Below are positions 5,732 to 25,252 of a stretch of 34,133 nucleotides of DNA, one piece after another. Source of the stretch: a virus; the IMG/VR virus record IMGVR_UViG_3300025168_000309, positions 1 through 34,133 of that record, one strand, 5' to 3'. The position numbers and the translations under genes are program-made. Under the pieces are notes generated by a model. It did not search any database, had not been told where the DNA came from, and saw only the letters and a list, made by a program, of their open reading frames with translations. The first letter of the stretch is position 1, and every line of letters begins with the position of its first letter.

Positions 5732-8700
5732 ATGGCAAGAGTAAAAGGAACATTAGGTATATCGGCAAATTTCGAACCACAAATAGCGGCAGCATTTGAT
5801 GCTCGTGCAAATGTACCTACAAAAGCAGACTTGATTCTTGCTGCTACTTGGGTAGCATTAGATTCGGGAACTTACGTTTATAACGGTATGACTGTTACTG
5901 TCTCTGAGGATTCAACAGCGGCTAACAATGGTATTTATGTTTTATTAGATACAGCAGAGATAGAAACTGCTGATTTTTCAGGTTGGTTATTTGTAGGATC
6001 GGCAGCAGCTGGTACTTCAGGTAGCTCAGGTAGTTCAGGGGCAGCAGGTTCATCAGGATCTTCAGGTACAAGTGGTTCATCAGGATCTTCAGGTACAAGT
6101 GGTTCTTCAGGATCATCAGGTACATCAGGTTCTTCAGGATCATCCGGTACAAGCGGTTCATCAGGATCTTCAGGTGAATCAGGTACAAGCGGTTCATCAG
6201 GTTCATCAGGAGCAGCTGGTACTTCAGGTAGTTCAGGTTCATCAGGTACATCAGGTAGCTCAGGTTCATCAGGTACATCAGGTAGCTCAGGTTCATCAGG
6301 AGAATCAGGTACTTCAGGATCATCAGGTTCATCAGGTACAAGCGGTTCATCAGGATCATCAGGTACAAGCGGTTCATCAGGATCTTCAGGTACAAGTGGT
6401 TCATCAGGATCTTCAGGTGCTTCAGGTAGCTCAGGTTCATCAGGAGCAGCAGGTACTTCAGGATCATCAGGTTCAAGTGGTACTTCAGGTTCATCAGGAT
6501 CCTCAGGTACATCAGGTAGCTCAGGTTCTTCAGGAGAATCAGGTACATCAGGTTCAAGTGGATCTTCGGGTACATCAGGTTCAAGTGGTTCATCAGGTAC
6601 TTCAGGTTCATCAGGATCTTCAGGGGTTTCAGGTTCTTCAGGATCATCAGGTACATCAGGTTCTTCAGGATCATCAGGTACAAGTGGTTCAAGTGGATCT
6701 TCAGGTGAAGCAGGTACAAGCGGTTCAAGTGGATCTTCAGGAACATCAGGTTCAAGTGGTTCATCAGGTACTTCAGGTCAAGATGGTTCATTTGGTGGTG
6801 CTAGTTTTGATTATGATTTTTCAACAAACACAACAACATCAGACCCAGGATCAGGTAATGTAAAATTAAATAATGCAACTCAAAATGCTGCAACTCGAGT
6901 TTATATAAATGATATAGATTCTGCTGGAAGTGATATTTCAACATTTTTAGCAACATTAGATGCATCCACATCAGCAATAAAAGGTCATATAAGAATATCA
7001 AATAAATTTGATACTAATCAATTTATATTATGGTCTATTACAGGAACAACAGATAATACAGGTTGGTGGGAATTAGTTACAGCAGTAGCAAATTCATCAG
7101 CTACATCACCATTTTCAGATGGTGAAGATGTGCTATGTTCATTTGTTGTAACAGGGGATAAAGGAGATAGTGGTTCATCAGGTTCATCAGGTGTTTCAGG
7201 TAGCTCAGGTTCATCAGGAACTTCAGGTGCAGATGGTTCATCAGGTTCATCAGGAACTTCAGGTGAAACAGGTGGAACAGGTTCAAGTGGTTCATCAGGT
7301 GTTTCAGGTAGCTCAGGTTCATCAGGTACTTCAGGTGCAGACGGATCTTCAGGATCAAGTGGAACTTCAGGTGAAACAGGAGGAACAGGTTCAAGTGGTT
7401 CATCAGGTGTTTCAGGTAGCTCAGGTTCTTCAGGAACTTCAGGAGCAGATGGTTCAAGTGGATCTTCAGGTACTTCAGGTACAGACGGTTCATCAGGATC
7501 AAGCGGTACTTCAGGTGCAGATGGTTCATCAGGTTCATCAGGAACTTCAGGAGCAACTGTTATAGCACCTAATACCTTTTCATATGATTTTCAAACTTCA
7601 ACAGTAGGTGACCCAGGAGGTGGAGAAGTTCAAGGAGATAATAGTACACAAACATCAATAGCTGAATTATTTATTAATTTAGATGATGGTGATGGAAATA
7701 CTATTCCAACTCCAACAGCTCCAGGAATAATAACAATAAGAAAACAATCAAATTCATCAGTATTTATTTCATACCGTTATACTAGTGTTTCTGTAAATTC
7801 TGGTATAGCTACATTTGGCGGTACTGTTACTGCTAGTAGCACAACAAACCCATTTGCTGATAATGATCCAATTTATGTAGGATTTACACTAAGTGGATCA
7901 TCAGGTTCTTCAGGATCTTCAGGTGCTTCAGGTTCAAGTGGATCTTCAGGTACTTCAGGTGCAGATGGTTCAAGTGGTTCATCAGGTACTTCAGGTGCAG
8001 ATGGTTCAAGTGGTTCAAGTGGTACTTCAGGTGCAGATGGTTCAAGTGGTTCAAGTGGTACTTCAGGTGCAGATGGCTCTTCAGGTTCATCAGGAGCAGC
8101 AGGTACATCAGGTTCAAGTGGTTTATTTGGTGGTATTCCTTATAGTTTTTCTACAACAGTAGGAGGAGAAACAGCAGCAGGACAAATAAGACTTAATAAT
8201 GCAGATGCTCAATCTGCAACCCAAGTTCTTATTAGTGATACAGATGCAGAAACTGGTGATCAATCAGATTATTTAGCAACATTAGATGATGCTGGGTTTA
8301 CGGATAATAGGGGTTATTTAATAATACAAGATGCAGATGGTGGTGGAGCAGGTGCTCAATCATTTTCAACATTTATAATAAAATCAATTGCTAGTACTGC
8401 AGATTCACAACATACATTTAATGTTACTTTTGTAGCAGCAACAAATGCAGGAACAGGTAATCCACCATTTAGTGATGCTGATAAAATAGTAATGAATTTT
8501 TCAGCAACTGGTGAAGCAGGTTCTTCAGGATCTTCAGGTGCTTCAGGATCAAGCGGTTCATCAGGAACTTCAGGTGCAGATGGTTCAAGTGGATCAAGTG
8601 GAACTTCAGGTGAAGATGGATCTTCAGGATCATCAGGAACTTCAGGTGCAGATGGGTCTTCAGGTTCATCAGGAACTTCAGGTGCAGATGGTTCAAGTGG

Positions 8701-11700
8701 TTCATCAGGAACTTCAGGTGCAGATGGTTCTAGCGGTTCATCAGGTACATCAGGTATAACAGGTGATCCAGGTTCTTCAGGTTCGAGTGGTACTTCGGGT
8801 GCAGATGGTTCTTCAGGATCTTCAGGTACTTCAGGTAGTTCAGGTTCATCAGGAACTTCAGGTTCTTCGGGAAGTTCAGGTGCTTCAGGATCTTCAGGTT
8901 CGAGTGGTTCATCAGGTGAGTATGGTGGTGTTCCTTATGATTATGGAGGAGTTGCTTCTACAGCTCCAACTTCAGGATTTTGGACTCCAAATAATGCTAC
9001 AGTTAGTAGTATTACAGAAATATATCTTAGTGAAACTAATAACCAAGTTGTTAATGTAATAGATTGGGCTAATTCAGTTTCTACAGGTATAATTTACATT
9101 AAATCAGCTGATGGTTCAGATAATTCAATTTTAACAGCTACAATAGATTCTGTAGATTCAACAAATGTTGGATATGTAATATTTTCAGTAAGTAATCCAT
9201 CAGGTAATACTTTTAGTGAAAATCCTGATGAAGAAGCATGTAATATTATTTTAGTACCAGCAGGACCAAGTGGTGGTGGAGGTTCTTCAGGATCTTCAGG
9301 TGCTTCAGGATCAAGTGGTTCATCAGGAACTTCAGGTGCAGATGGTTCAAGCGGATCTTCAGGTACTTCAGGTGCAGATGGTTCAAGTGGTTCATCAGGA
9401 ACTTCAGGTGCAGATGGATCTTCAGGTTCATCAGGAACTTCAGGTGCAGATGGTTCTTCAGGATCTTCAGGTACTTCAGGTGCAGATGGTTCAAGCGGAT
9501 CTTCAGGTACTTCAGGTACAGATGGCTCTTCAGGTTCATCAGGTTCAAGTGGTTCATCAGGTGAATATGGTGGAGTTCCATATAGATTTAGTGATTCAAC
9601 ATCAGGTGATCCATCTTCAGGAATAGTAAGATTTAATAATGGATCTTTAGCAAGTGTTTCACAAGTAGTATTTAATAGAACTAACTCAGATAGTGTTAGT
9701 GTAGCAGATTGGCTTGACAATTTTACTACAGGAATAATGTACATAAAATCAACTAATGGTGCTGATACATCAATTGCTGTATTTACTACAACAAATAGAT
9801 CATCAGGAGCATCAGTTAACACATATTCAGTTTCAAATGGAGCTGGTTCAATATTTACAGATGAAGAATTTGTTAGTGTAATATTTGCTCCAAAAGGTAA
9901 TGATGGAGAAGGAGGATCTTCAGGTTCTTCAGGTTCTTCAGGTTCTTCAGGAACTTCAGGTACAGATGGTTCAAGTGGATCTTCAGGTACTTCAGGTGCA
10001 GATGGCTCTTCAGGTTCATCAGGAACTTCAGGAGCAGATGGTTCATCAGGATCAAGCGGTACTTCAGGTGCAGATGGTTCTTCAGGATCTTCAGGTACTT
10101 CAGGTGCAGATGGTTCAAGCGGATCTTCAGGTACATCAGGTAGCTCAGGCTCATCAGGAGATTCAGGTTCAAGTGGTTCATCAGGTACTTCAGGTGCAGA
10201 TGGTTCAAGCGGTTCATCAGGTACTTCAGGATCAAGTGGTTCATCAGGTACTTCAGGATCAAGTGGTTCATCAGGTACAAGTGGTACAAACGGAAGATAT
10301 GGTGGGGTTCCTTACAGATTTGATACTTCAACAACATCAACAGGAATATCACAAGGAGAAATAAGATTTAATAATGGTACGTTAGGAAGTGTTACTACAA
10401 TCTTTATTCATAATGAAAATGAAGATGGAGTTAGTATGTCTACTTGGTTAACTGGTATGTCTAGTGCTGGTATTTTATATGTAAAAGCAGCTAATGGTTC
10501 AGATGCATCAATAGGAATATTTAATATTACATCAAGAAGTGTAGGAGCTGCATTTACTACTTTAGGTATAAGTTCTCCTTCAGGACAAACATTTAGTAAT
10601 GGGGAAGCAGTTAATATAATATATGCACCAAAAGGTGGTGAAGGTGAAGCAGGTTCAAGTGGTTCATCAGGTACTTCAGGAGCAGCAGGTTCTTCAGGAT
10701 CATCAGGTACATCAGGTTCTTCAGGATCAAGTGGTACTTCAGGTTCTTCAGGATCAAGTGGTACTTCAGGTGCAGACGGATCTTCAGGATCAAGTGGTAC
10801 TTCAGGTTCATCAGGTTCTTCAGGAACTTCAGGTGCAACAGGAGGATCAGGTTCAAGCGGATCTTCAGGATCTTCAGGTTCATCTGGAGAAGCAGGTTCT
10901 GTTGGAGGAATGTTTATATCAAAATATGACACATCAGTAAATGCAGCACCAACAGACCCAGGAACAGGTGATTGGCAATTAAATGCTGCTTGGGGTGATA
11001 CTCCATCACAATTAAGAATAAATCATACAGCAAAAGATGGTACAAATATTGAAGACTTATTAGAAAGTATTCAAGTACCAGCTATAATGAGAATGACTGA
11101 AAATGATAATCCAGTTGCTTATAAAGTAGTTAGAATAACAGCTGCTTCAGAATTAAATGGATTTATTAATTATACAATTACACAATTAGAATCAGGAGAT
11201 ACTGGAACTAATACTAATGGTTTTTCATTTATATTTTCAGAAAATGGAGAAGATGGTAGTTCAGGTTCATCAGGAGCTTCAGGTTCATCAGGTAGTTCAG
11301 GTACATCAGGTTCATCCGGGTCAAGTGGTTCATCAGGTTCATCAGGAGCATCAGGATCCTCAGGATCAAGTGGTACTTCAGGTGCAACAGGAGGATCAGG
11401 TTCTTCAGGTTCTTCAGGAACTTCAGGTACAGATGGTTCAAGTGGATCTTCAGGTTCATCAGGTGATAGAGGAGGAGTAAGATATCAATTTGTCACAACA
11501 GTTAATTCAGATGGAGAATTTAATTATAATGGTTCCAATACTGTTCAATTTAATAGAGATGATGTAAATAGTGTTGACCAAGGAACATGGTTAAATTCAT
11601 GGAATGATACAGGTGATAGTACAAATGGATTTGGTGTACTTACAGTTCAAAGTGCTGATAGTGGAAATAATGTATTAGTTGCTATAGTAACAGCTGTAAA

Positions 11701-14700
11701 TAATTCAATAGGATTATATTTTCAAGCTACTGTTACAGAATTAACATATGATGCTTTCCAATTAAATGAACAAGTTGTTGTATCATTTGCAGCATTTGGT
11801 AATTCAGGTAGCTCAGGTTCATCAGGAGCATCAGGATCTTCAGGATCAAGTGGTACTTCAGGTTCATCAGGTTCTTCAGGAACATCAGGTGCAGATGGAT
11901 CTTCAGGTTCATCAGGAACTTCAGGTGCAACAGGTGGGACAGGTTCAAGCGGTTCATCAGGTACTTCAGGTGCAGATGGATCTTCAGGATCAAGTGGTAC
12001 TTCAGGTGCAGATGGTTCAAGTGGATCTTCAGGAACTTCAGGTTCATCAGGTTCATCAGGAACATCAGGTTCAAGTGGTTCTTCAGGTTCATCAGGATCC
12101 TCAGGTGCATCAGGTAGCTCAGGTTCATCAGGAACATCAGGTGCAACAGGTGAACCAGGTTCAAGTGGTTCATCAGGAACTTCAGGTTCATCAGGAAGTT
12201 CAGGTACATCAGGTAGCTCAGGTAGCTCAGGTAGCTCAGGATCTTCAGGATCAAGTGGTTCATCCGGAGAATATGGTGGTGTTCCTTATAATTTTAGTAC
12301 AGATACTAGTGGAGACACATCATCAAGCAACATGCGATATAATAACTCTTCTATAGGAAGTGTTACTCAAGTTGTAATGAATAGAGTTAGTAGACAATTA
12401 GCAAATGTTGGAGATTGGTTAGACAATTTCAATAGTGGTATAATGTATGTTAAATCAGCTGATTCTTCAGATACAACAATAAATGTATTCACGGTTACAG
12501 GTGAATCAGGAGCAGCTACACAAAACACATATACAGTATCAAATGGTTCAGGTACATCAGTTCCAACAAATGGAGAGGATGTTTGTGTAATATTCGCTCC
12601 AAAAGGAAATAATGGTGAAGGAGGATCTTCAGGATCAAGTGGTTCATCAGGTTCATCAGGTACTTCAGGTTCATCAGGGAGTTCAGGTACATCAGGTTCA
12701 TCAGGTTCTTCAGGAACTTCAGGTGCAACAGGTGGAACAGGTTCAAGCGGTTCATCAGGTACATCAGGTAGCTCAGGTTCTTCAGGAACATCAGGTTCAA
12801 GTGGTTCTTCAGGTACTTCAGGTAGCTCAGGTTCTTCAGGTACTTCAGGTGCAACAGGAGGATCAGGTTCAAGTGGTTCTTCAGGTACTTCAGGTTCAAG
12901 TGGATCATCAGGTACTTCAGGTTCATCAGGTTCAAGTGGTAATTCAGGTTCATCAGGATCTTCAGGTAGCTCAGGAAGTTCAGGTACAAGTGGTTCATCA
13001 GGATCTTCAGGTTCATCAGGAAGTTCAGGTAGCTCAGGTTCATCAGGAGAATATGGTGGTGTTCCTTATAGATTTAACACTTCTACAGATGCAACACCAG
13101 CTTCAGGAGATGTACAATTTAATGGTAATTTAGGTAGTAATAACAGAGTTTATATTAATAATACCAATGTACAGGGTGTAGGAGTAAGTGGTTTCTTAGA
13201 TAGTATTAACAGTGGTATAATGTATATTAAATCAGCTAATGGTGCTGATACTTCAATAGCTACATTTACAGTTACTGGAGTTACTCAAGCTGCTACAATT
13301 ACTACATATGTGGTATCAAATGGTGATGGAACAGCATTTGCTAATGAAGAAAAGATTAGTGTAATGCTCGCTCCACAAGGAAATAATGGTGAGGGAGGAT
13401 CTTCAGGATCTTCAGGATCAAGTGGTTCATCAGGATCTTCAGGATCTTCAGGTTCAAGCGGATCTTCAGGTGCTTCAGGATCTTCAGGTTCATCAGGAAC
13501 TTCAGGTGCAACAGGTGGAACAGGTTCAAGTGGATCTTCAGGTACATCAGGCTCAAGTGGATCTTCAGGTACATCAGGTAGCTCAGGTTCTTCAGGAACT
13601 TCAGGTGCAACAGGTGGAACAGGTTCAAGTGGTTCATCAGGATCAAGTGGATCTTCAGGATCTTCAGGTACATCAGGTTCATCAGGATCATCAGGTACAT
13701 CAGGTTCATCAGGAAGTTCAGGTACATCAGGTAGCTCAGGTTCTTCAGGAACTTCAGGTGCAACAGGAGGATCAGGTTCATCAGGATCTTCAGGTTCATC
13801 AGGATCATCAGGTACAAGTGGATCTTCAGGTTCAAGTGGTTCATCAGGATCTTCAGGATCAAGTGGTTCATCAGGTCAATATGGTGGTGTCCCATATAAT
13901 TTTTCAACAGCAACTACTGGAACTCCAGTTTCATCCTTTTTACGTTATAATAATGGTACAATAGGAAGTGTTAGTCAAGTTGTAATAAATAGAGTTAGTA
14001 AACAATTAGCAAATGTTGGAGATTGGTTAGACAATTTCAACAGTGGTATAATGTACATTAAATCCCTAGATGGAGCAGATACAACAATAAACGTATTTAC
14101 AGTTACAGGTGAATCAGGTGCAGCAACATCTAACACATATACAGTATCAAATGGTTCAGGTACATCAGTTCCATCAAATGAAGAAGCTATAGCAGTAATA
14201 TTTGCTCCAAAAGGAAATAATGGTGAAGGAGGTTCTTCAGGATCTTCAGGCTCTTCAGGCTCTTCAGGTTCATCAGGTTCTTCAGGTTCTTCAGGAACTT
14301 CAGGTGCAACAGGAGGATCAGGTTCAAGCGGGTCTTCAGGTACAAGTGGTTCATCAGGATCTTCAGGAACATCAGGTGCAACAGGTGGAACAGGTTCAAG
14401 TGGTTCTTCAGGTACTTCAGGTTCAAGTGGATCATCAGGTACTTCAGGATCAAGTGGTTCATCAGGTACTTCAGGTGCAACTGGTGGAACAGGTTCAAGT
14501 GGTTCATCAGGTTCAAGTGGTTCATCAGGATCAAGTGGATCTTCAGGTTCATCAGGATCTTCAGGTGCTTCAGGTAGCTCAGGTTCTTCAGGAACTTCAG
14601 GTGCAACAGGAGGATCAGGTTCAAGCGGGTCTTCAGGTTCATCAGGATCATCAGGTTCAAGTGGTTCATCAGGTAGCTCAGGATCTTCAGGTAGCTCAGG

Positions 14701-16471
14701 TTCATCAGGTTCATCAGGTGAATATGGTGGTGTCCCATATAATTTTTCAACATCAACTTCTGGAACAGTTACATCATCCTTTTTACGTTATAATAATAGC
14801 ACGGTAGGAAGTGTTAGTCAAGTTGTAATAAGTAGATCAAATAAAAATTTAGCTAATGTTGGAGATTGGTTAGACAACTTCAACAGTGGTATAATGTACA
14901 TTAAATCCCTAGATGGAGCAGATACAACAATAAATGTATTCACAGTTTCTGGAGAATCAGGTGCAGCTACTCAAAATACATATACAGTATCAAATGGTTC
15001 TGGAACAGCAAGACCATCAAATGAAGAAGCTATAGCAGTAATATTTGCTCCAAAAGGAAATAATGGTGAAGGAGGATCTTCAGGTTCAAGTGGTTCATCA
15101 GGATCATCAGGATCATCAGGTTCTTCAGGATCATCAGGTTCAAGTGGATCTTCAGGTGCTTCAGGATCAAGTGGTTCTTCAGGAACATCAGGTAATACAG
15201 GAGGATCAGGTTCAAGTGGATCTTCAGGATCTTCAGGATCTTCAGGATCATCAGGATCTTCAGGTGCTTCAGGTAGCTCAGGTTCTTCAGGAACTTCAGG
15301 TGCAACAGGAGGATCAGGTTCAAGTGGATCTTCAGGATCTTCAGGATCTTCAGGTGCTTCAGGTAGCTCAGGTTCTTCAGGAACATCAGGTAATACAGGA
15401 GGATCAGGTTCAAGTGGTTCATCAGGTTCATCAGGTTCTTCAGGAACTTCAGGTAATACAGGAGGATCAGGTTCAAGTGGATCTTCAGGTGCTTCAGGAT
15501 CAAGTGGTTCAAGTGGTACTTCAGGTAATACAGGAGGATCAGGTTCAAGTGGATCTTCAGGATCTTCAGGATCTTCAGGAACTTCAGGTGCAACAGGAGG
15601 ATCAGGTTCAAGTGGATCATCAGGTGCTTCAGGTTCATCAGGATCATCAGGTACTTCAGGTAATACAGGAGGATCAGGTTCAAGTGGATCATCAGGTACG
15701 TCAGGTTTAACAGTAGCAGGTTCTTCAGGTTCTTCAGGTACTTCAGGTAATACAGGAGGATCAGGTTCAAGTGGATCTTCAGGAAATTCAGGTTCATCAG
15801 GATCATCAGGTACTTCAGGTAATACAGGAGGATCAGGTTCAAGTGGATCATCAGGATCAAGTGGTTCAAGTGGTACTTCAGGTAATACAGGAGGATCAGG
15901 TTCATCAGGATCTTCAGGAACTTCAGGAATAGCTAGTATAACAGGATCAACCAATAATGGTATAATGACCTTAAATGGTTCATCACCAAATTTATCAGTA
16001 GAATCAAATTTTAAAATACTTGCAAGTGCAGGATCAATTGATATCACATTTTTAAGTTGTACAGCTACAGGTGCTATTGCATTTAACCATCAACAAGCAG
16101 AAAATGAAGGATCAGGAAATGCTGCTTTAATGGGGAATGGTTCAACAACTCAATATAATGTAATGTATTGGACATCTGGCGGTGTAACATCTTGGGTAAA
16201 TGCTGATAAAGATACTTCAGTTGCAGCAACTGGATTCCTTGCATATGCTTTAGGAACTGATCCTGATGCAGATGGTATGATGTTAAATGGATTTGTATAT
16301 CAAGAAGATCATGGGTTTACTATTGGTGCTCCACTTTATCTTAAAGATAATGGACAAATAAATAATACAGCTCCAACAGCAGCAGGTGATTATGTTAGAA
16401 TTATAGGTTATGCTACTACTACTGATGTATTTTATTTCAATCCAGATAATACATGGGTATTATTAAGTTAA
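5732..16471 (+). CDS. Giant modular Gly-X-Y fibre protein
   Basis: A 3,579-aa fibre protein, nearly a third of the window. Residues 1-93 are a unique N-terminal domain, presumably the virion anchor. Then 13 Gly-X-Y blocks alternate with 12 globular modules of about 110-125 aa. Most modules open with (Y/F)GGVPYxF and contain a GDWLDNFNSGIMYIKS-type core and a FAPKGNNGEGG-type exit. Blocks begin near nt 6011, 7154, 7893, 8514, 9272, 9911, 10640, 11250, 11805, 12620, 13394, 14228 and 15071. Triplets are GSS, GTS, GAD, GAT, GNT and GGS, with essentially no proline. The last ~180 residues (from nt 15926) are a tip of a type common in marine phage fibres: LYLKDNGQI, VRIIGYA, FNPDNTWVLLS. The start is 4 nt after the previous stop, and no late promoter precedes it. 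Reverse-strand open frames across it are by-products of the triplet codons. Receptor binding at a distance is the likely role. Confidence 0.9.
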   Translation: MARVKGTLGISANFEPQIAAAFDARANVPTKADLILAATWVALDSGTYVYNGMTVTVSEDSTAANNGIYVLLDTAEIETADFSGWLFVGSAAAGTSGSSGSSGAAGSSGSSGTSGSSGSSGTSGSSGSSGTSGSSGSSGTSGSSGSSGESGTSGSSGSSGAAGTSGSSGSSGTSGSSGSSGTSGSSGSSGESGTSGSSGSSGTSGSSGSSGTSGSSGSSGTSGSSGSSGASGSSGSSGAAGTSGSSGSSGTSGSSGSSGTSGSSGSSGESGTSGSSGSSGTSGSSGSSGTSGSSGSSGVSGSSGSSGTSGSSGSSGTSGSSGSSGEAGTSGSSGSSGTSGSSGSSGTSGQDGSFGGASFDYDFSTNTTTSDPGSGNVKLNNATQNAATRVYINDIDSAGSDISTFLATLDASTSAIKGHIRISNKFDTNQFILWSITGTTDNTGWWELVTAVANSSATSPFSDGEDVLCSFVVTGDKGDSGSSGSSGVSGSSGSSGTSGADGSSGSSGTSGETGGTGSSGSSGVSGSSGSSGTSGADGSSGSSGTSGETGGTGSSGSSGVSGSSGSSGTSGADGSSGSSGTSGTDGSSGSSGTSGADGSSGSSGTSGATVIAPNTFSYDFQTSTVGDPGGGEVQGDNSTQTSIAELFINLDDGDGNTIPTPTAPGIITIRKQSNSSVFISYRYTSVSVNSGIATFGGTVTASSTTNPFADNDPIYVGFTLSGSSGSSGSSGASGSSGSSGTSGADGSSGSSGTSGADGSSGSSGTSGADGSSGSSGTSGADGSSGSSGAAGTSGSSGLFGGIPYSFSTTVGGETAAGQIRLNNADAQSATQVLISDTDAETGDQSDYLATLDDAGFTDNRGYLIIQDADGGGAGAQSFSTFIIKSIASTADSQHTFNVTFVAATNAGTGNPPFSDADKIVMNFSATGEAGSSGSSGASGSSGSSGTSGADGSSGSSGTSGEDGSSGSSGTSGADGSSGSSGTSGADGSSGSSGTSGADGSSGSSGTSGITGDPGSSGSSGTSGADGSSGSSGTSGSSGSSGTSGSSGSSGASGSSGSSGSSGEYGGVPYDYGGVASTAPTSGFWTPNNATVSSITEIYLSETNNQVVNVIDWANSVSTGIIYIKSADGSDNSILTATIDSVDSTNVGYVIFSVSNPSGNTFSENPDEEACNIILVPAGPSGGGGSSGSSGASGSSGSSGTSGADGSSGSSGTSGADGSSGSSGTSGADGSSGSSGTSGADGSSGSSGTSGADGSSGSSGTSGTDGSSGSSGSSGSSGEYGGVPYRFSDSTSGDPSSGIVRFNNGSLASVSQVVFNRTNSDSVSVADWLDNFTTGIMYIKSTNGADTSIAVFTTTNRSSGASVNTYSVSNGAGSIFTDEEFVSVIFAPKGNDGEGGSSGSSGSSGSSGTSGTDGSSGSSGTSGADGSSGSSGTSGADGSSGSSGTSGADGSSGSSGTSGADGSSGSSGTSGSSGSSGDSGSSGSSGTSGADGSSGSSGTSGSSGSSGTSGSSGSSGTSGTNGRYGGVPYRFDTSTTSTGISQGEIRFNNGTLGSVTTIFIHNENEDGVSMSTWLTGMSSAGILYVKAANGSDASIGIFNITSRSVGAAFTTLGISSPSGQTFSNGEAVNIIYAPKGGEGEAGSSGSSGTSGAAGSSGSSGTSGSSGSSGTSGSSGSSGTSGADGSSGSSGTSGSSGSSGTSGATGGSGSSGSSGSSGSSGEAGSVGGMFISKYDTSVNAAPTDPGTGDWQLNAAWGDTPSQLRINHTAKDGTNIEDLLESIQVPAIMRMTENDNPVAYKVVRITAASELNGFINYTITQLESGDTGTNTNGFSFIFSENGEDGSSGSSGASGSSGSSGTSGSSGSSGSSGSSGASGSSGSSGTSGATGGSGSSGSSGTSGTDGSSGSSGSSGDRGGVRYQFVTTVNSDGEFNYNGSNTVQFNRDDVNSVDQGTWLNSWNDTGDSTNGFGVLTVQSADSGNNVLVAIVTAVNNSIGLYFQATVTELTYDAFQLNEQVVVSFAAFGNSGSSGSSGASGSSGSSGTSGSSGSSGTSGADGSSGSSGTSGATGGTGSSGSSGTSGADGSSGSSGTSGADGSSGSSGTSGSSGSSGTSGSSGSSGSSGSSGASGSSGSSGTSGATGEPGSSGSSGTSGSSGSSGTSGSSGSSGSSGSSGSSGSSGEYGGVPYNFSTDTSGDTSSSNMRYNNSSIGSVTQVVMNRVSRQLANVGDWLDNFNSGIMYVKSADSSDTTINVFTVTGESGAATQNTYTVSNGSGTSVPTNGEDVCVIFAPKGNNGEGGSSGSSGSSGSSGTSGSSGSSGTSGSSGSSGTSGATGGTGSSGSSGTSGSSGSSGTSGSSGSSGTSGSSGSSGTSGATGGSGSSGSSGTSGSSGSSGTSGSSGSSGNSGSSGSSGSSGSSGTSGSSGSSGSSGSSGSSGSSGEYGGVPYRFNTSTDATPASGDVQFNGNLGSNNRVYINNTNVQGVGVSGFLDSINSGIMYIKSANGADTSIATFTVTGVTQAATITTYVVSNGDGTAFANEEKISVMLAPQGNNGEGGSSGSSGSSGSSGSSGSSGSSGSSGASGSSGSSGTSGATGGTGSSGSSGTSGSSGSSGTSGSSGSSGTSGATGGTGSSGSSGSSGSSGSSGTSGSSGSSGTSGSSGSSGTSGSSGSSGTSGATGGSGSSGSSGSSGSSGTSGSSGSSGSSGSSGSSGSSGQYGGVPYNFSTATTGTPVSSFLRYNNGTIGSVSQVVINRVSKQLANVGDWLDNFNSGIMYIKSLDGADTTINVFTVTGESGAATSNTYTVSNGSGTSVPSNEEAIAVIFAPKGNNGEGGSSGSSGSSGSSGSSGSSGSSGTSGATGGSGSSGSSGTSGSSGSSGTSGATGGTGSSGSSGTSGSSGSSGTSGSSGSSGTSGATGGTGSSGSSGSSGSSGSSGSSGSSGSSGASGSSGSSGTSGATGGSGSSGSSGSSGSSGSSGSSGSSGSSGSSGSSGSSGEYGGVPYNFSTSTSGTVTSSFLRYNNSTVGSVSQVVISRSNKNLANVGDWLDNFNSGIMYIKSLDGADTTINVFTVSGESGAATQNTYTVSNGSGTARPSNEEAIAVIFAPKGNNGEGGSSGSSGSSGSSGSSGSSGSSGSSGSSGASGSSGSSGTSGNTGGSGSSGSSGSSGSSGSSGSSGASGSSGSSGTSGATGGSGSSGSSGSSGSSGASGSSGSSGTSGNTGGSGSSGSSGSSGSSGTSGNTGGSGSSGSSGASGSSGSSGTSGNTGGSGSSGSSGSSGSSGTSGATGGSGSSGSSGASGSSGSSGTSGNTGGSGSSGSSGTSGLTVAGSSGSSGTSGNTGGSGSSGSSGNSGSSGSSGTSGNTGGSGSSGSSGSSGSSGTSGNTGGSGSSGSSGTSGIASITGSTNNGIMTLNGSSPNLSVESNFKILASAGSIDITFLSCTATGAIAFNHQQAENEGSGNAALMGNGSTTQYNVMYWTSGGVTSWVNADKDTSVAATGFLAYALGTDPDADGMMLNGFVYQEDHGFTIGAPLYLKDNGQINNTAPTAAGDYVRIIGYATTTDVFYFNPDNTWVLLS
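12266..12619 (+). repeat. Fibre globular module 9 (near-duplicate of modules 11 and 12)
   Basis: A 354-nt, 118-aa module starting at GEYGGVPYNFST. Its core (QLANVGDWLDNFNSGIMY) and exit are almost the same as in the modules at 13874 and 14717, while other modules are clearly diverged. This indicates duplication or gene conversion within the gene. Confidence 0.8.
13874..14227 (+). repeat. Fibre globular module 11 (near-duplicate)
   Basis: The same length, 354 nt, as modules 9 and 12. It shares long DNA stretches with module 12, including the segment around GTGGTATAATGTACATTAAA and the LDGADTTINVFTV coding run. It starts with GQYGGVPYNF. Confidence 0.8.
14717..15070 (+). repeat. Fibre globular module 12 (near-duplicate)
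   Basis: 354 nt. Shares SSFLRYNN and the LDGADTTINVFTV core with module 11 and differs mainly in its first 45 codons (STSTSGTV; SRSNKNLANVGDWL). It is followed by the longest Gly-X-Y block. Confidence 0.8.
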
Positions 16472-20802: not shown

Positions 20803-21291
20803 ATGGCAGTAGTAAATCCAAACGAGATGTTTTTCACAGCTTTTGAACCAAAAGTTGCCAATAGATTTATAATGTATGTAGATGGTATACCATCTTATAT
20901 GATTAAAGAAGTAGGTGAAATCAAAATAGAGCAAGGTGAAATAGTATTAAATCACATTAATACTTATAGAAAAGTAAAAGGAAAAGCTAAATGGTCTGAT
21001 TTATCAATGACATTGTATGATCCAATTACACCATCAGGAGCACAAGCAACTATGGAGTGGGTTAGATTACACCATGAATCAGTTACTGGTAGAGATGGTT
21101 ATAGTGATTTCTATAAAAAAGATGTAACTATTAATGTATTAGGTCCTGTAGGAGACGTAGTTTCTGAATGGATTATAAAAGGTGCATTTATTAAAGATGC
21201 AACATTTAAAGGATTTAATTGGGATACTGAAGCGGAAGCTCAAACTATCGCATTAACTTTAGGAATGGATTACTGCGTGTTAAATTTCTAA
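20803..21291 (+). CDS. gp19: Tail tube protein, gp19-like
   Basis: A 162-aa protein, the usual gp19 length (T4 163 aa). Diagnostic phrases of the T4_gp19 family appear in order: NRFIMYVDGIPSYMIKEV, GEIVLNHINTYRKVKGKAKWSDLSMTLYDPI (written here as adjacent segments), WVRLHHESVTGRDGYSDFYKKD, GPVGDVVSEWIIKGAFI and FNWDTEAEAQTIALTLGMDYC. It stacks as hexamer rings to form the inner tube through which DNA passes. It is preceded by its own late-type promoter and followed by a UUCG-loop terminator, making it a likely monocistronic, highly expressed unit. Confidence 0.96.
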   Translation: MAVVNPNEMFFTAFEPKVANRFIMYVDGIPSYMIKEVGEIKIEQGEIVLNHINTYRKVKGKAKWSDLSMTLYDPITPSGAQATMEWVRLHHESVTGRDGYSDFYKKDVTINVLGPVGDVVSEWIIKGAFIKDATFKGFNWDTEAEAQTIALTLGMDYCVLNF

Positions 21292-21389: not shown

Positions 21390-22139
21390 ATGAGCGAAAC
21401 CAAATTTAAATTCCCAACAGAAATCGTTGATTTACCTTCAAAAGGTTTACTTTACGATAAAGAAAATCCACTATCATCCGGTAAAATTGAAATGAAATAT
21501 ATGACTGCTAAGGAAGAAGATATCCTTACAAATCAATCATACATTTCAAATGGTACTGTATTAGATAGATTATTAAAAGCATTAATAGTTTCTAAAGTAG
21601 ATTATAATGATCTTATAGTAGGTGATAAAAATGCATTATTAATAGCAGCTAGAATACTAGGTTATGGTAATGATTATGTAATTACTTATAAAGGTGAAGA
21701 AGTTAAGATAGATTTATCAATCATTGATAATAAAAAAATAACAAATAAAGACTTTGAATCCGGTAAAAATGAATTTCCTTTTACTTTACCAAAATCAGGA
21801 ACAGTAATTACTTTTAAATTATTGACACATGGTGATGAGATGAAAATTGAAAAAGAAATTAAGGGGTTGAAGAAAATAAACCCTAATGGATCACCTGAAT
21901 TATCAACACGTCTTAAATATATGATTGTGTCAGTAGATGGTTCAAGTGAAAAAAAGGATGTTAGAGAATATGTAGATAATTATTTCTTAGCACAAGACTC
22001 CAGGGCACTAAGAAACTATATAAAAGACTTCCAACCAGATGTTAATTTAAAAGTTCCTGTAGAGACTATCCAGGGTGGCGAAGAGGACATCCAAGTCCCT
22101 ATAGGGCTTACGTTTTTTTGGCCTGACGCAGACTTATAG
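21390..22139 (+). CDS. gp26: gp26 / T4_baseplate-family protein, probable tail assembly chaperone
   Basis: A 249-aa protein with the T4_baseplate (gp26) family start: FPTEIVDLPSKGLLYDKENPLSSGKIEMKYMTAKEEDILTNQS (read in segments), and the typical end GLTFFWPDADL. In T4, gp26 is a hub-assembly factor. Here the gene sits exactly where other tailed phages keep the tape-measure chaperones: after tube and before tape measure. The overlapping +1 frame is open from 22105 to 22428 and carries conserved-looking text before any ATG, so a frameshifted long form of about 345 aa is likely. A run of seven T (22113-22119) and the tta-TAG-a stop context lie in the only 33-nt stretch where the switch can occur. 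Confidence 0.85.
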   Translation: MSETKFKFPTEIVDLPSKGLLYDKENPLSSGKIEMKYMTAKEEDILTNQSYISNGTVLDRLLKALIVSKVDYNDLIVGDKNALLIAARILGYGNDYVITYKGEEVKIDLSIIDNKKITNKDFESGKNEFPFTLPKSGTVITFKLLTHGDEMKIEKEIKGLKKINPNGSPELSTRLKYMIVSVDGSSEKKDVREYVDNYFLAQDSRALRNYIKDFQPDVNLKVPVETIQGGEEDIQVPIGLTFFWPDADL

Positions 22140-22428
22140 AGTAAGTTTATTTTCTATAATTCATGAAATAGTATTTCATGGTAAAGGAGGTTATGATTGG
22201 CATACCGTTTATAATATGCCTATATGGCTTAGGACCTTTACATTTAATAAGATAAAAGATTATTATGAAGAAGAAAATAGACAAGCTAAAAAAGCACAAA
22301 ACCAAAGTGGCAGTGGTAAGTCAATAACAACTGATGGAAAGGTAACATCTCCTGAATTTCTTAAAAACGCACAAACTCCACCACCATCTTCCTCCCCCAA
22401 TTATACTACAAGAGCATCTAGAAAATAG
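22105..22428 (+). CDS. Frameshift extension of the gp26-like gene (T-like chaperone domain)
   Basis: This frame is open from just after a stop at 22102-22104. Read from 22138 it gives RVSLFSIIHEIVFHGKGG, then YDWHTVYNMPIWLRTFTF, NKIKDYYEEENRQAKK and a polar Pro/Ser tail. The first ATG is at 22216, but the meaningful sequence starts about 25 codons earlier. No start codon with a usable ribosome site explains it; the AAAGGAGG at 22183-22190 is 25 nt from that ATG and codes for the KGG of the protein. The simplest reading is a +1 (or -2) shift from the gp26 frame, giving a long form with a charged helical C-terminus that could bind the tape measure. A separate short protein (70 aa from 22216) or a sequencing indel are the alternatives. 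Confidence 0.6.
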   Translation, partial: GLRFFGLTQTYRVSLFSIIHEIVFHGKGGYDWHTVYNMPIWLRTFTFNKIKDYYEEENRQAKKAQNQSGSGKSITTDGKVTSPEFLKNAQTPPPSSSPNYTTRASRK

Positions 22429-22462: not shown

Positions 22463-25252
22463 ATGAGCAAGAATTCTGAAAATATAAAACAATCTGCTGC
22501 TGCACAAAAGGAATTTAACAACCTTAGTAAAGAGGGCCAAGATATTTATAGAGAATATCAAGGTATTTTTAATAGCATATCTGGTGAATTAGGAAAACAA
22601 GTAAGTTATGCTGCCCAAGCTAAAAAAGAATATAATAATTTAGCTAGTATATCAAGAAAACTTGCTGATGCTCAAAAAGAAGGTAATAGGTTATCAGATG
22701 AACAATTAACTAACCTCCAAAAAAGAGCAAAATCATCAGCTGATCAAATTACATTTGCATTAAAGGAGGTTGCAGCGAAACAAAAACTTGGAGCAGTATT
22801 AAGTGCTAATGAGCAAGCTTTATTAGCAGCTGGGGATGCGAAGCAAATCCAAGAAAAAGATTTTTTAAAGGACATTCAGAAAGAAGTAGAACTTAGAAAG
22901 AAATCAAACGAAGCAATGGGGGTAGCTGGTGGATTACTATCTGGGTTAACTGCTATGGCAGGACCATTTGCAAAAGCTCTAAAACTTGATAAAGTTCAAA
23001 AAGACATGGAAAAGACTGCTGATTCAGTAGCCAAAGGTAATAAATCATTTGGTAAAATGAGAGTATTAGCAGCTGGTGTTGGATCAGCTATTGGCTCTGC
23101 TTTTGCAACTCTTACTGACCCTGCTGTTGTAATAGGTGCTATAATAAAGAGCATGGGGGCACTTGCCAAAGAACAAAAGAATTTTAGGCAAATAACAGGA
23201 CAAAATGTAGATTTACAAGGTAGTATGAACACCAAAATGGTTACTACTATTGATTATATGAAAGGAGTAGTAGCCTTAACTAAGGAATTAGGGGTAAATG
23301 CTCAAGTAGTTTTTTCAGCAGAAACCATTACTGAAGTAGCTGATTTAACAGAAAATATGGGATTAGGTGCTAAAGAAGCAGCTAATTTAGCTAAAATGGC
23401 TAAAATAAGTGGTAAGGAATTATCTACAGTTACGGCTGAAATGGAAGCATCATTTAAATCATTTGTTAAAACTAATAAAACAGGTCTTAATCTAAAAGAT
23501 GTAATATCAGATGTAGGAAATGCATCAGCAGCCGTTTCATTATCGTTAGGAAGCCAACCAGAAAAAATACAACAAGCTGCTATGGAAGCCCGAAAATTAG
23601 GGTTATCACTAGAGCAAGTAGATAAAATAGCAGGTTCATTGTTAGATTTTGAATCTTCTATTGAAGCTGAAATGGAAGCTGAATTATTAACAGGTAAGCA
23701 ATTAAATTTAGATAAAGCTAGACAATTAGCATTAAATAATGATTTAGCAGGGGTAGCTAAAGAAATAGGTAAAAACCAAGCAATATTAGGAGCATTTTCA
23801 TCAGGTAATAGAATACAACAAGAAGCTACAGCTAAAGCTATGGGTATGTCTAGGGATGAAATGGCTAAAATGATTTATCAACAAAAAATAGCTAATGGTT
23901 TAACAGCAGAACAAGCAGCTAAGGCAGCAGATGTATCTGTATCTGAAGCAAAACGATTAACAGCCCAAGAAACAATATCTAAAGTAATGGATAAAATGAC
24001 TCAAGGAGCAGCTGCTTTCCTTGATAAAATGATGCCTATATTAGATAATACTTTTCTTATAGAAGCATCAATGATTGCAATTGGAGCTGTTGTAGTTGGT
24101 AAGATAGCAGGAGGTCTTGCTGATGCAGCAAAAAGTACAATGGATATGGCTAAAGGTGCTGCTAAGGCTTTATCAGGTATGGGAGGATCTAAAGGTGGAA
24201 AAGATGATACACCTGATCTTAAGAAAAAACCTGATACAAAGGGAATGGATAAAAAATCCGGAGAAGGAATAAAAGCATATTTAAAAGGTTTAGGTGATGG
24301 TTTGGCTTCTATTGGTAAACAGATGGGTAATGTAATAAAAGGAGCAGTAGCATTAGGTGTAGCTGGTTTAGTTTTAGGAGGAGCATTTGCTTTAGCTTTA
24401 ATGATGATTAAAGATGTAGATCCTATACAAATGATAGCATTTTCAGCTTCATTAGCTATGTTAGGACTTACAATGGCAGTAATGGGTAATATAGGAGGAA
24501 ATATTATAGTAGGAGCATTAGCTATGGGAATATTAGCATTAGCATTAATACCAGCTGCATACGCTTTTAGTTTATTAGCTGAGGTAGATATAAATAAAAT
24601 GATTGCATTTTCTTTAATGTTACCTTTATTAGCATTAGCAGCAGCAGGATTAGGATTTTTAGCACCATTTATTGCAGCTGGATCAGCAGCATTAGTAGTA
24701 TTAGGATTAGGTATGATGGCTGTTTCATTAGCTTTTGCTGCAATGGGGAATGTAGATATAGAACAAATAAGAGTATTTTCAGAAGTTCTACCTGGGTTAG
24801 GACTAGCAATGGCAGGATTAGGACTTATGGCACCTTTGATGATATTGGGATCTTTTGCATTAGGTGCTATGTCATTAGCTTTAGTACCATTAGCTTTAAT
24901 GGGTCCTGGATTATCATTAGCTGCAACAGCATTGATGGGAATGGCTCAAGCATTAAGAGAAGTAGGATCAGCTTTAGGTGATATTGATGGTAGTAAATTA
25001 GATAAGTTAGAAGATTTTGCTATAACTAGTGCTGTAACAGGGGCAGCATCAGGAGTAATGGCAGCAATTGCATCTCCAATTGCAGCATTAGGAGGAATGT
25101 TAGGAGGAGGAGATGAGGGTGATGATGCTCAAATGCAAATAGTTGAAAAACTAGATCAACTTATTGCAATAGTAGAAAAAGGAGGAGATGTTCTTTTAGA
25201 TGGAGCTAAAGTAGGAAAAAATCTAGCAATTGCATCCTCCAAAATGGGTTAA
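22463..25252 (+). CDS. Tail tape measure protein
   Basis: A 929-aa protein. Residues 1-150 are polar and helical/coiled-coil (AAAQKEFNNLSKEGQDIYREYQ-type). The middle is Ala/Lys-rich helical with MGMSRDEMAKMIYQQKIANGLTAEQAA. Residues about 610-880 hold several very hydrophobic Ala/Gly/Leu segments. Within that part a unit of about 55 residues recurs three times, opening with DVDPIQMIAFS (652), EVDINKMIAFS (707) and NVDIEQIRVFS (763). Long helices plus hydrophobic segments, and the place after tube and chaperone, identify a tape measure. At about 0.15 nm per residue it would set a tail of roughly 140 nm, longer than T4 (gp29, 590 aa). The hydrophobic end may insert into the host membrane during DNA entry. 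Confidence 0.9.
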   Translation: MSKNSENIKQSAAAQKEFNNLSKEGQDIYREYQGIFNSISGELGKQVSYAAQAKKEYNNLASISRKLADAQKEGNRLSDEQLTNLQKRAKSSADQITFALKEVAAKQKLGAVLSANEQALLAAGDAKQIQEKDFLKDIQKEVELRKKSNEAMGVAGGLLSGLTAMAGPFAKALKLDKVQKDMEKTADSVAKGNKSFGKMRVLAAGVGSAIGSAFATLTDPAVVIGAIIKSMGALAKEQKNFRQITGQNVDLQGSMNTKMVTTIDYMKGVVALTKELGVNAQVVFSAETITEVADLTENMGLGAKEAANLAKMAKISGKELSTVTAEMEASFKSFVKTNKTGLNLKDVISDVGNASAAVSLSLGSQPEKIQQAAMEARKLGLSLEQVDKIAGSLLDFESSIEAEMEAELLTGKQLNLDKARQLALNNDLAGVAKEIGKNQAILGAFSSGNRIQQEATAKAMGMSRDEMAKMIYQQKIANGLTAEQAAKAADVSVSEAKRLTAQETISKVMDKMTQGAAAFLDKMMPILDNTFLIEASMIAIGAVVVGKIAGGLADAAKSTMDMAKGAAKALSGMGGSKGGKDDTPDLKKKPDTKGMDKKSGEGIKAYLKGLGDGLASIGKQMGNVIKGAVALGVAGLVLGGAFALALMMIKDVDPIQMIAFSASLAMLGLTMAVMGNIGGNIIVGALAMGILALALIPAAYAFSLLAEVDINKMIAFSLMLPLLALAAAGLGFLAPFIAAGSAALVVLGLGMMAVSLAFAAMGNVDIEQIRVFSEVLPGLGLAMAGLGLMAPLMILGSFALGAMSLALVPLALMGPGLSLAATALMGMAQALREVGSALGDIDGSKLDKLEDFAITSAVTGAASGVMAAIASPIAALGGMLGGGDEGDDAQMQIVEKLDQLIAIVEKGGDVLLDGAKVGKNLAIASSKMG

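Follow-up and report, generated by a model that had tools for sequence, protein, structure and literature searches.

The tail assembly chaperone locus of this virus is very probably one gene of a T4-like phage with a contractile tail, from which two products are made by way of a +1 frameshift. Such a phage would probably obtain its tail chaperone in two lengths by having some of the ribosomes skip a single base at a fixed spot, and the same spot is kept in hundreds of related wild phages. We also consider it likely, with somewhat less assurance, that +1 shifting at an RF2-type YUU_U sequence, where the A-site codon is a sense codon and no stimulator is detectable, extends across a large and mostly uncultured clade, and that within this clade the direction was flipped to −1 together with an exchange of the site, so that a single protein family combines +1 shifting, −1 shifting, and gene duplication.

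A T4-like tail module with overlapping frames

The window, by which we mean the whole stretch of 34,133 nucleotides analyzed here (IMG/VR record IMGVR_UViG_3300025168_000309), carries a T4-like tail module on the plus strand in the order tube, chaperone, tape measure. The tube gene (20803-21291, 162 aa) is an open reading frame that aligns with a gene of Flavobacterium phage immuto annotated as a tail completion/tail tube protein. The tape measure gene (22463-25252, 929 aa) has no family match of its own and is assigned from its position, which equals that of the annotated tape measure gene of immuto. Between them lies the gp26-like gene for the short tail assembly chaperone (TAC-N, "G"; 21390-22139, 249 aa). 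A search of the window for phage tRNA genes found none. Farther upstream, an open reading frame of 3579 aa (5732-16471), likely a giant fibre or adhesin, contains many long open reading frames on both strands, a nesting that suggests repetitive sequence.

The gp26-like frame ends in TFFWPDADL at a TAG (22137-22139). A TAG at 22102-22104 closes the +1 frame, which then stays open from 22105 to 22425, so that both frames are open over 22105-22136, and its first ATG, GTG, or TTG is the ATG at 22216, which lies within the conserved core of what we call the T domain (22120-22428, with the stop at 22426-22428). This domain is helical and comprises 102 aa after the shift. Joining the two frames requires a +1 (or −2) shift, as the −1 frame meets a TGA at 22124, and a +1 shift computed on the window yields a predicted product of 345 aa (TAC-NC, "GT", gp51-like; 21390-22428). 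The site itself reads TTT TTT TGG CC (22113-22123), with a predicted P-site TTT at 22116-22118, re-pairing in the +1 frame at 22117-22119, and an A-site codon that is TGG (22119-22121) in frame 0 or GGC (22120-22122) in the +1 frame. The first-pass annotation had proposed a programmed +1 or −2 shift here from the letters alone, and our frame check bore out its particulars: the FFWPDADL terminus, the extent of the open +1 frame and its lack of an early start codon, the T7 run at 22113-22119, the TGA that blocks a −1 slip, and a product of about 345 aa.

Conservation of the +1 site

IMG/VR was scanned twice with G proteins of the window group, giving 80 loci each time, and removal of near copies at 90% identity left 123 representatives, all fetched by similarity to gp26. 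The conservation of the overlap, which the first-pass annotation had left to an alignment of related phages, proved complete: all 123 have the arrangement and read [TTY or CTT] YTT T(GG, TC or AC) CC. After the site, 118 of them keep the +1 frame open for 50 codons or more; in four it runs to a contig edge, and in one it meets an early stop. The same arrangement, annotated as separate genes, is seen in the isolates that are the best relatives, immuto (gtt agc ttt ctt tgg cct gac) and Microcystis phage Mel-JY01 (gtt aac ttt ttt tgg cct aag taa); among the loci, Flavobacterium is known as a host only for the former and Microcystis only for the latter.

The block formed by T7 and GGCCTGAC is almost wholly invariant among relatives. 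For GGCCTGAC this is expected, because its letters encode both W-P-D and G-L-T, depending on the frame, but two-frame coding does not explain the invariance of the third bases of both Phe codons in the poly-T part. As slip codon, 117 of the representatives have TTT, six have CTT, and none has TTC, whereas TTC makes up 166 of 945 upstream Phe codons (17.6%) against 0 of the 117 Phe slip codons. The nominal binomial chance of this absence is about 1e-10, which is not a true probability because the sequences are related. The A-site codon is TGG in 119/123 and TTC or TAC in the remaining 4/123. Downstream of the G stop, codon positions 1/2/3 of the T frame carry 221/129/647 substitutions (40 disjoint pairs); the T frame is selected at the codon level.

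A slip that depends on the stop codon was rejected. The distance from the slip codon to the stop ranges from 3 to 6 codons, and the stop may be TAA, TAG, or TGA; since both distance and type vary, the TAG of the window is not part of the site. The switch region originally drawn, which combined T7 with a TAG stop context, thus holds for T7, which falls in the invariant part of the site, and not for the stop.

An independent sample and a change of direction

A further scan used the T domain alone, by a pattern around its VYNMPIWL motif, and returned 80 loci. In 75 of these T lies in the +1 frame relative to G behind a YTTT site, and L281 is arranged likewise after an upstream indel (76/80). In L281 the frame is broken within the G gene at about 1153, probably by a sequencing indel. 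In-frame fusions of G and T, which the first-pass annotation had named as evidence against its reading, were absent from all 80.

The other four loci (L309, L316, L323, and L325) have T in the −1 frame, around 1440-1505. Their site reads AAT TTC TTC TGG, which abolishes the +1 tetramer, and A_AAT_TTC is a canonical X_XXY_YYZ −1 heptamer. In a tree of G proteins that included three of the four, the −1 loci nest inside the +1 clade (a fork of 67 rows, 98/88), and therefore one lineage changed direction and site together. This covariation between the direction of the shift and the slip sequence is hard to explain except by ribosomal frameshifting.

T also follows G in the −1 frame in cyanophages and in T4-like phages of Aeromonas, Vibrio, Caulobacter, Xanthomonas, Stenotrophomonas, Cronobacter, and rhizobia. 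The slip site of these relatives is U_UUU_UUC or U_UUU_UUU, the former in 26 of 26 cyanophage/Aeromonas representatives, and in L174, L177, L115, L116, and L173 a stop directly before the heptamer closes the −1 frame. About 10 nt upstream, 21 of 22 cyanophage representatives have GAG GGN, which looks like a Shine-Dalgarno stimulator. Genes of 57-63 aa labeled "gp51" or "baseplate hub assembly catalyst" in L085 (3190-3390), L266 (2454-2639), and the cyanophage loci L094-L173 are T domains in the −1 frame behind the U_UUU_UUC of gp26.

Other arrangements occur as well. SP-15-like phages of Gram-positive hosts (L088, L091, L178, and L179) have T in the +1 frame and lack the YTTTGG site; a shared [ACG]CC [CA]GA TTY is a candidate shift site there. 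L087, L263, and L264 (Pseudomonas phage Cygsa01 and Ackermannviridae) have no canonical heptamer, and in Cygsa01 and VP-1 the stop and start overlap as TAATG, where T may be expressed by coupled reinitiation.

Alternative explanations

If the T7 run had been misread in assembly or sequencing, the true gene would be fused in frame, and a homopolymer in a metagenomic virus record is a typical place for such an error. The same frames are nonetheless kept in 123/123 representatives and in the isolates immuto and Mel-JY01, including cases with an interrupted run (TTTCTTT, TTCTTTT), and no fused relative occurs among the T-anchored loci, which refutes a sequencing error and makes an indel of this kind practically inconceivable. 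Slippage by RNA polymerase, adding or dropping a U at T7 so that a fraction of the mRNAs is fused in frame, is harder to separate by its product, which would be near-identical, and most members do contain T7. Yet the frames are kept where the site reads TTT CTT T or TTC TTT T and the runs are only 3-4 T long, and the −1 clade has a tandem-tRNA heptamer and no homopolymer, and we regard transcriptional slippage as very unlikely. The T domain might also be made as a separate protein through reinitiation or an internal start, as an ATG stands at or just past the G stop in cyanophages, KVP40-like phages, and some Ackermannviridae phages. The window, however, has no ATG, GTG, or TTG before 22216, and translation begun at that position would truncate the conserved core. 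Of 86 scored relatives, 67 likewise offer no start codon between the shift site and the T core, and the invariant YTTT would be left unexplained; this route is highly improbable for the window.

Within ribosomal frameshifting, a −2 shift would lead to the same final frame as +1, and the P-site UUU can re-pair two nucleotides back within T7. Shifting by −2 has been reported for another phage tail gene, that of Mu. Against it stand the members that read TTC TTT TGG (L033 and L247), where a −2 slip would meet UCU whereas +1 re-pairing on UUU is perfect; since these members break −2 re-pairing, +1 is favored and −2 is unlikely, which narrows the choice between the two directions that the first-pass annotation had offered. 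The comparative evidence that the two frames are joined in a programmed way is strong. A +1 slip one codon earlier (UUU to UUY) would be possible in most members, but not in the 3/123 whose first codon is TTC or CTT.

A model for the shift

Under the favored +1 reading, we infer that in vivo the majority of ribosomes would stop at 22137 and release the short form of 249 aa. A minority would slip one base forward while peptidyl-tRNA-Phe occupies the UUU at 22116-22118 and the UGG (Trp) codon in the A site is still unread; they would land on the UUU at 22117-22119 and read GGC next, giving the 345-aa form with its C-terminal T domain. Re-pairing in the +1 frame is possible in every variant of the site, UUU to UUU or, as in RF2, CUU to UUU. 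The junction would read LTFFGLTQ after a +1 shift and LTFFFGLTQ after a −2 shift. By analogy with lambda G/GT, both forms would coat the tape measure protein, and recruitment of tube subunits would fall to the T domain. No RNA folding signal stood out around the site (z-scores −0.4 to −0.95), and no Shine-Dalgarno sequence occurs at the RF2 spacing of about 3 nt upstream, the SD-like pentamers lying 34-39 nt upstream.

Protein family and structure

By sequence, the upstream frame is a member of the T4 gp26/gp51 family: the G protein of the window matches phrog_150 (E 2.6e-10), as do those of 18/18 relatives. T4 gp26 and gp51 both match phrog_150 and PF12322. A Pfam search with G or T gave no match above the cut-off, and a search of the window record with PF12322 gave none, the control genomes being likewise silent. 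The extra C-terminal region of T4 gp51 matches phrog_634. Direct profile comparison of the window-group T with gp51 gives a weak match (E 0.06), and the link runs through the −1 group: in hhalign, the window-group T matches the T of the cyanophages and other T4-like phages with T in the −1 frame at E 3.8e-5, which in turn matches the gp51 C-terminus at E 6.3e-8. Linked in this way, the T domain of the window is homologous to the C-terminus of gp51. Since the T domains chain to this C-terminus and the upstream proteins share the gp26/gp51 family, gp26 corresponds to G and gp51 to GT.

The AF2 model of the fusion has a mean pLDDT of 82.3; T was covered by one alignment row and was also modeled apart. 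Residues 1-94 of the model, which belong to G, show modest likeness, below Z 8, to the YqbN structure 3klu (Z 6.2, rmsd 5.0 over 89) and to the HK97 tail assembly chaperone 2ob9 (Z 5.2, rmsd 4.1 over 80). In the same comparison 5ir0, an uncharacterized PICI-element protein, scored Z 4.4 and unrelated rows Z 3.3 or less. Foldseek against the PDB returned no hit under E 0.001, and a sequence search of solved structures found none that was relevant.

Significance and comparison with known systems

These phages form a natural series, producing the same conserved pair of proteins by a +1 shift, a −1 shift, or two genes, and the need for a set ratio of short to long product can therefore be tested by swapping one solution for another. 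A clean +1 site with neither a stop codon nor an evident stimulator belongs to a poorly understood class. For annotation, our results suggest that the short cyanophage genes called "gp51" or "baseplate hub assembly catalyst" (phrog_634) each encode the C-terminal half of the long tail chaperone, whose fused form has been missed by databases.

That gp26-family proteins are the G/GT equivalent, as the first-pass annotation supposed, is right and already known at the family level. According to papers that cite their work (PMC10885494, PMC12846349), Vladimirov, Gautam and Davidson (Virology 2022) identified gp26 and gp51 as the T4 chaperone genes; by the same route, some T4-like phages are described as having a short gene alongside a single long fused one (PMC10885494), and TAC-N genes of T4-like phages as having poly-T −1 signals (PMC12846349). 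In the GenBank record of Acinetobacter phage Stupor, gp26, gp51, and gp28 are called tape measure protein assembly chaperones. A 2016 review gave T4 as an exception to G-T frameshifting (PMC5009743), and the first-pass annotation did the same; the G/GT reading covers T4 too, with gp26 and gp51 as separate paralogous genes. Our literature search, in which Vladimirov et al. was represented by citing papers, found no mention of +1 shifting in the gp26/gp51 family, and the RF2-like +1 site and the switch of direction look new.

T4 gp26 (TAC-N) and gp51 (TAC-NC) resemble the window's products in being a short form and a C-terminally extended form of the PF12322/phrog_150 family, but in T4 they come from two paralogous genes, one on each strand, where the window has one gene and a frameshift. 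The TAC genes of cyanophages and of Schizotequatrovirus/Chrysonvirus share the order of G followed by a homologous T and a poly-T near the end of G, and differ in shifting the opposite way (−1) on the tandem-slip site U_UUU_UUC. Lambda G/GT and HK97 gp13/14 are alike in gene position and in having short and long products, with modest similarity of fold between HK97 gp13 and our model, although no sequence similarity to the window was detected and lambda shifts by −1. The slip tetramer is identical to that of prfB (RF2), where both CUU_U and UUU_U occur (PMC5009743), CUU_U being the strongest +1 site tested in RF2 genes and UUU_U being found in a minority of species (PMC5009743); prfB differs in its UGA, where the A-site codon of the window and its relatives is a sense codon for Trp or, rarely, for Phe or Tyr, and in its SD at 3 nt and its autoregulation by RF2, both of which the window lacks. 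In the combination of YUU, NGG, and C, the site is also like CUU_AGG_C of yeast Ty1, where the P-site +1 slip likewise occurs next to a sense codon and GGC is read next (PMC5009743), with the difference that Ty1 is eukaryotic and needs a rare Arg tRNA.
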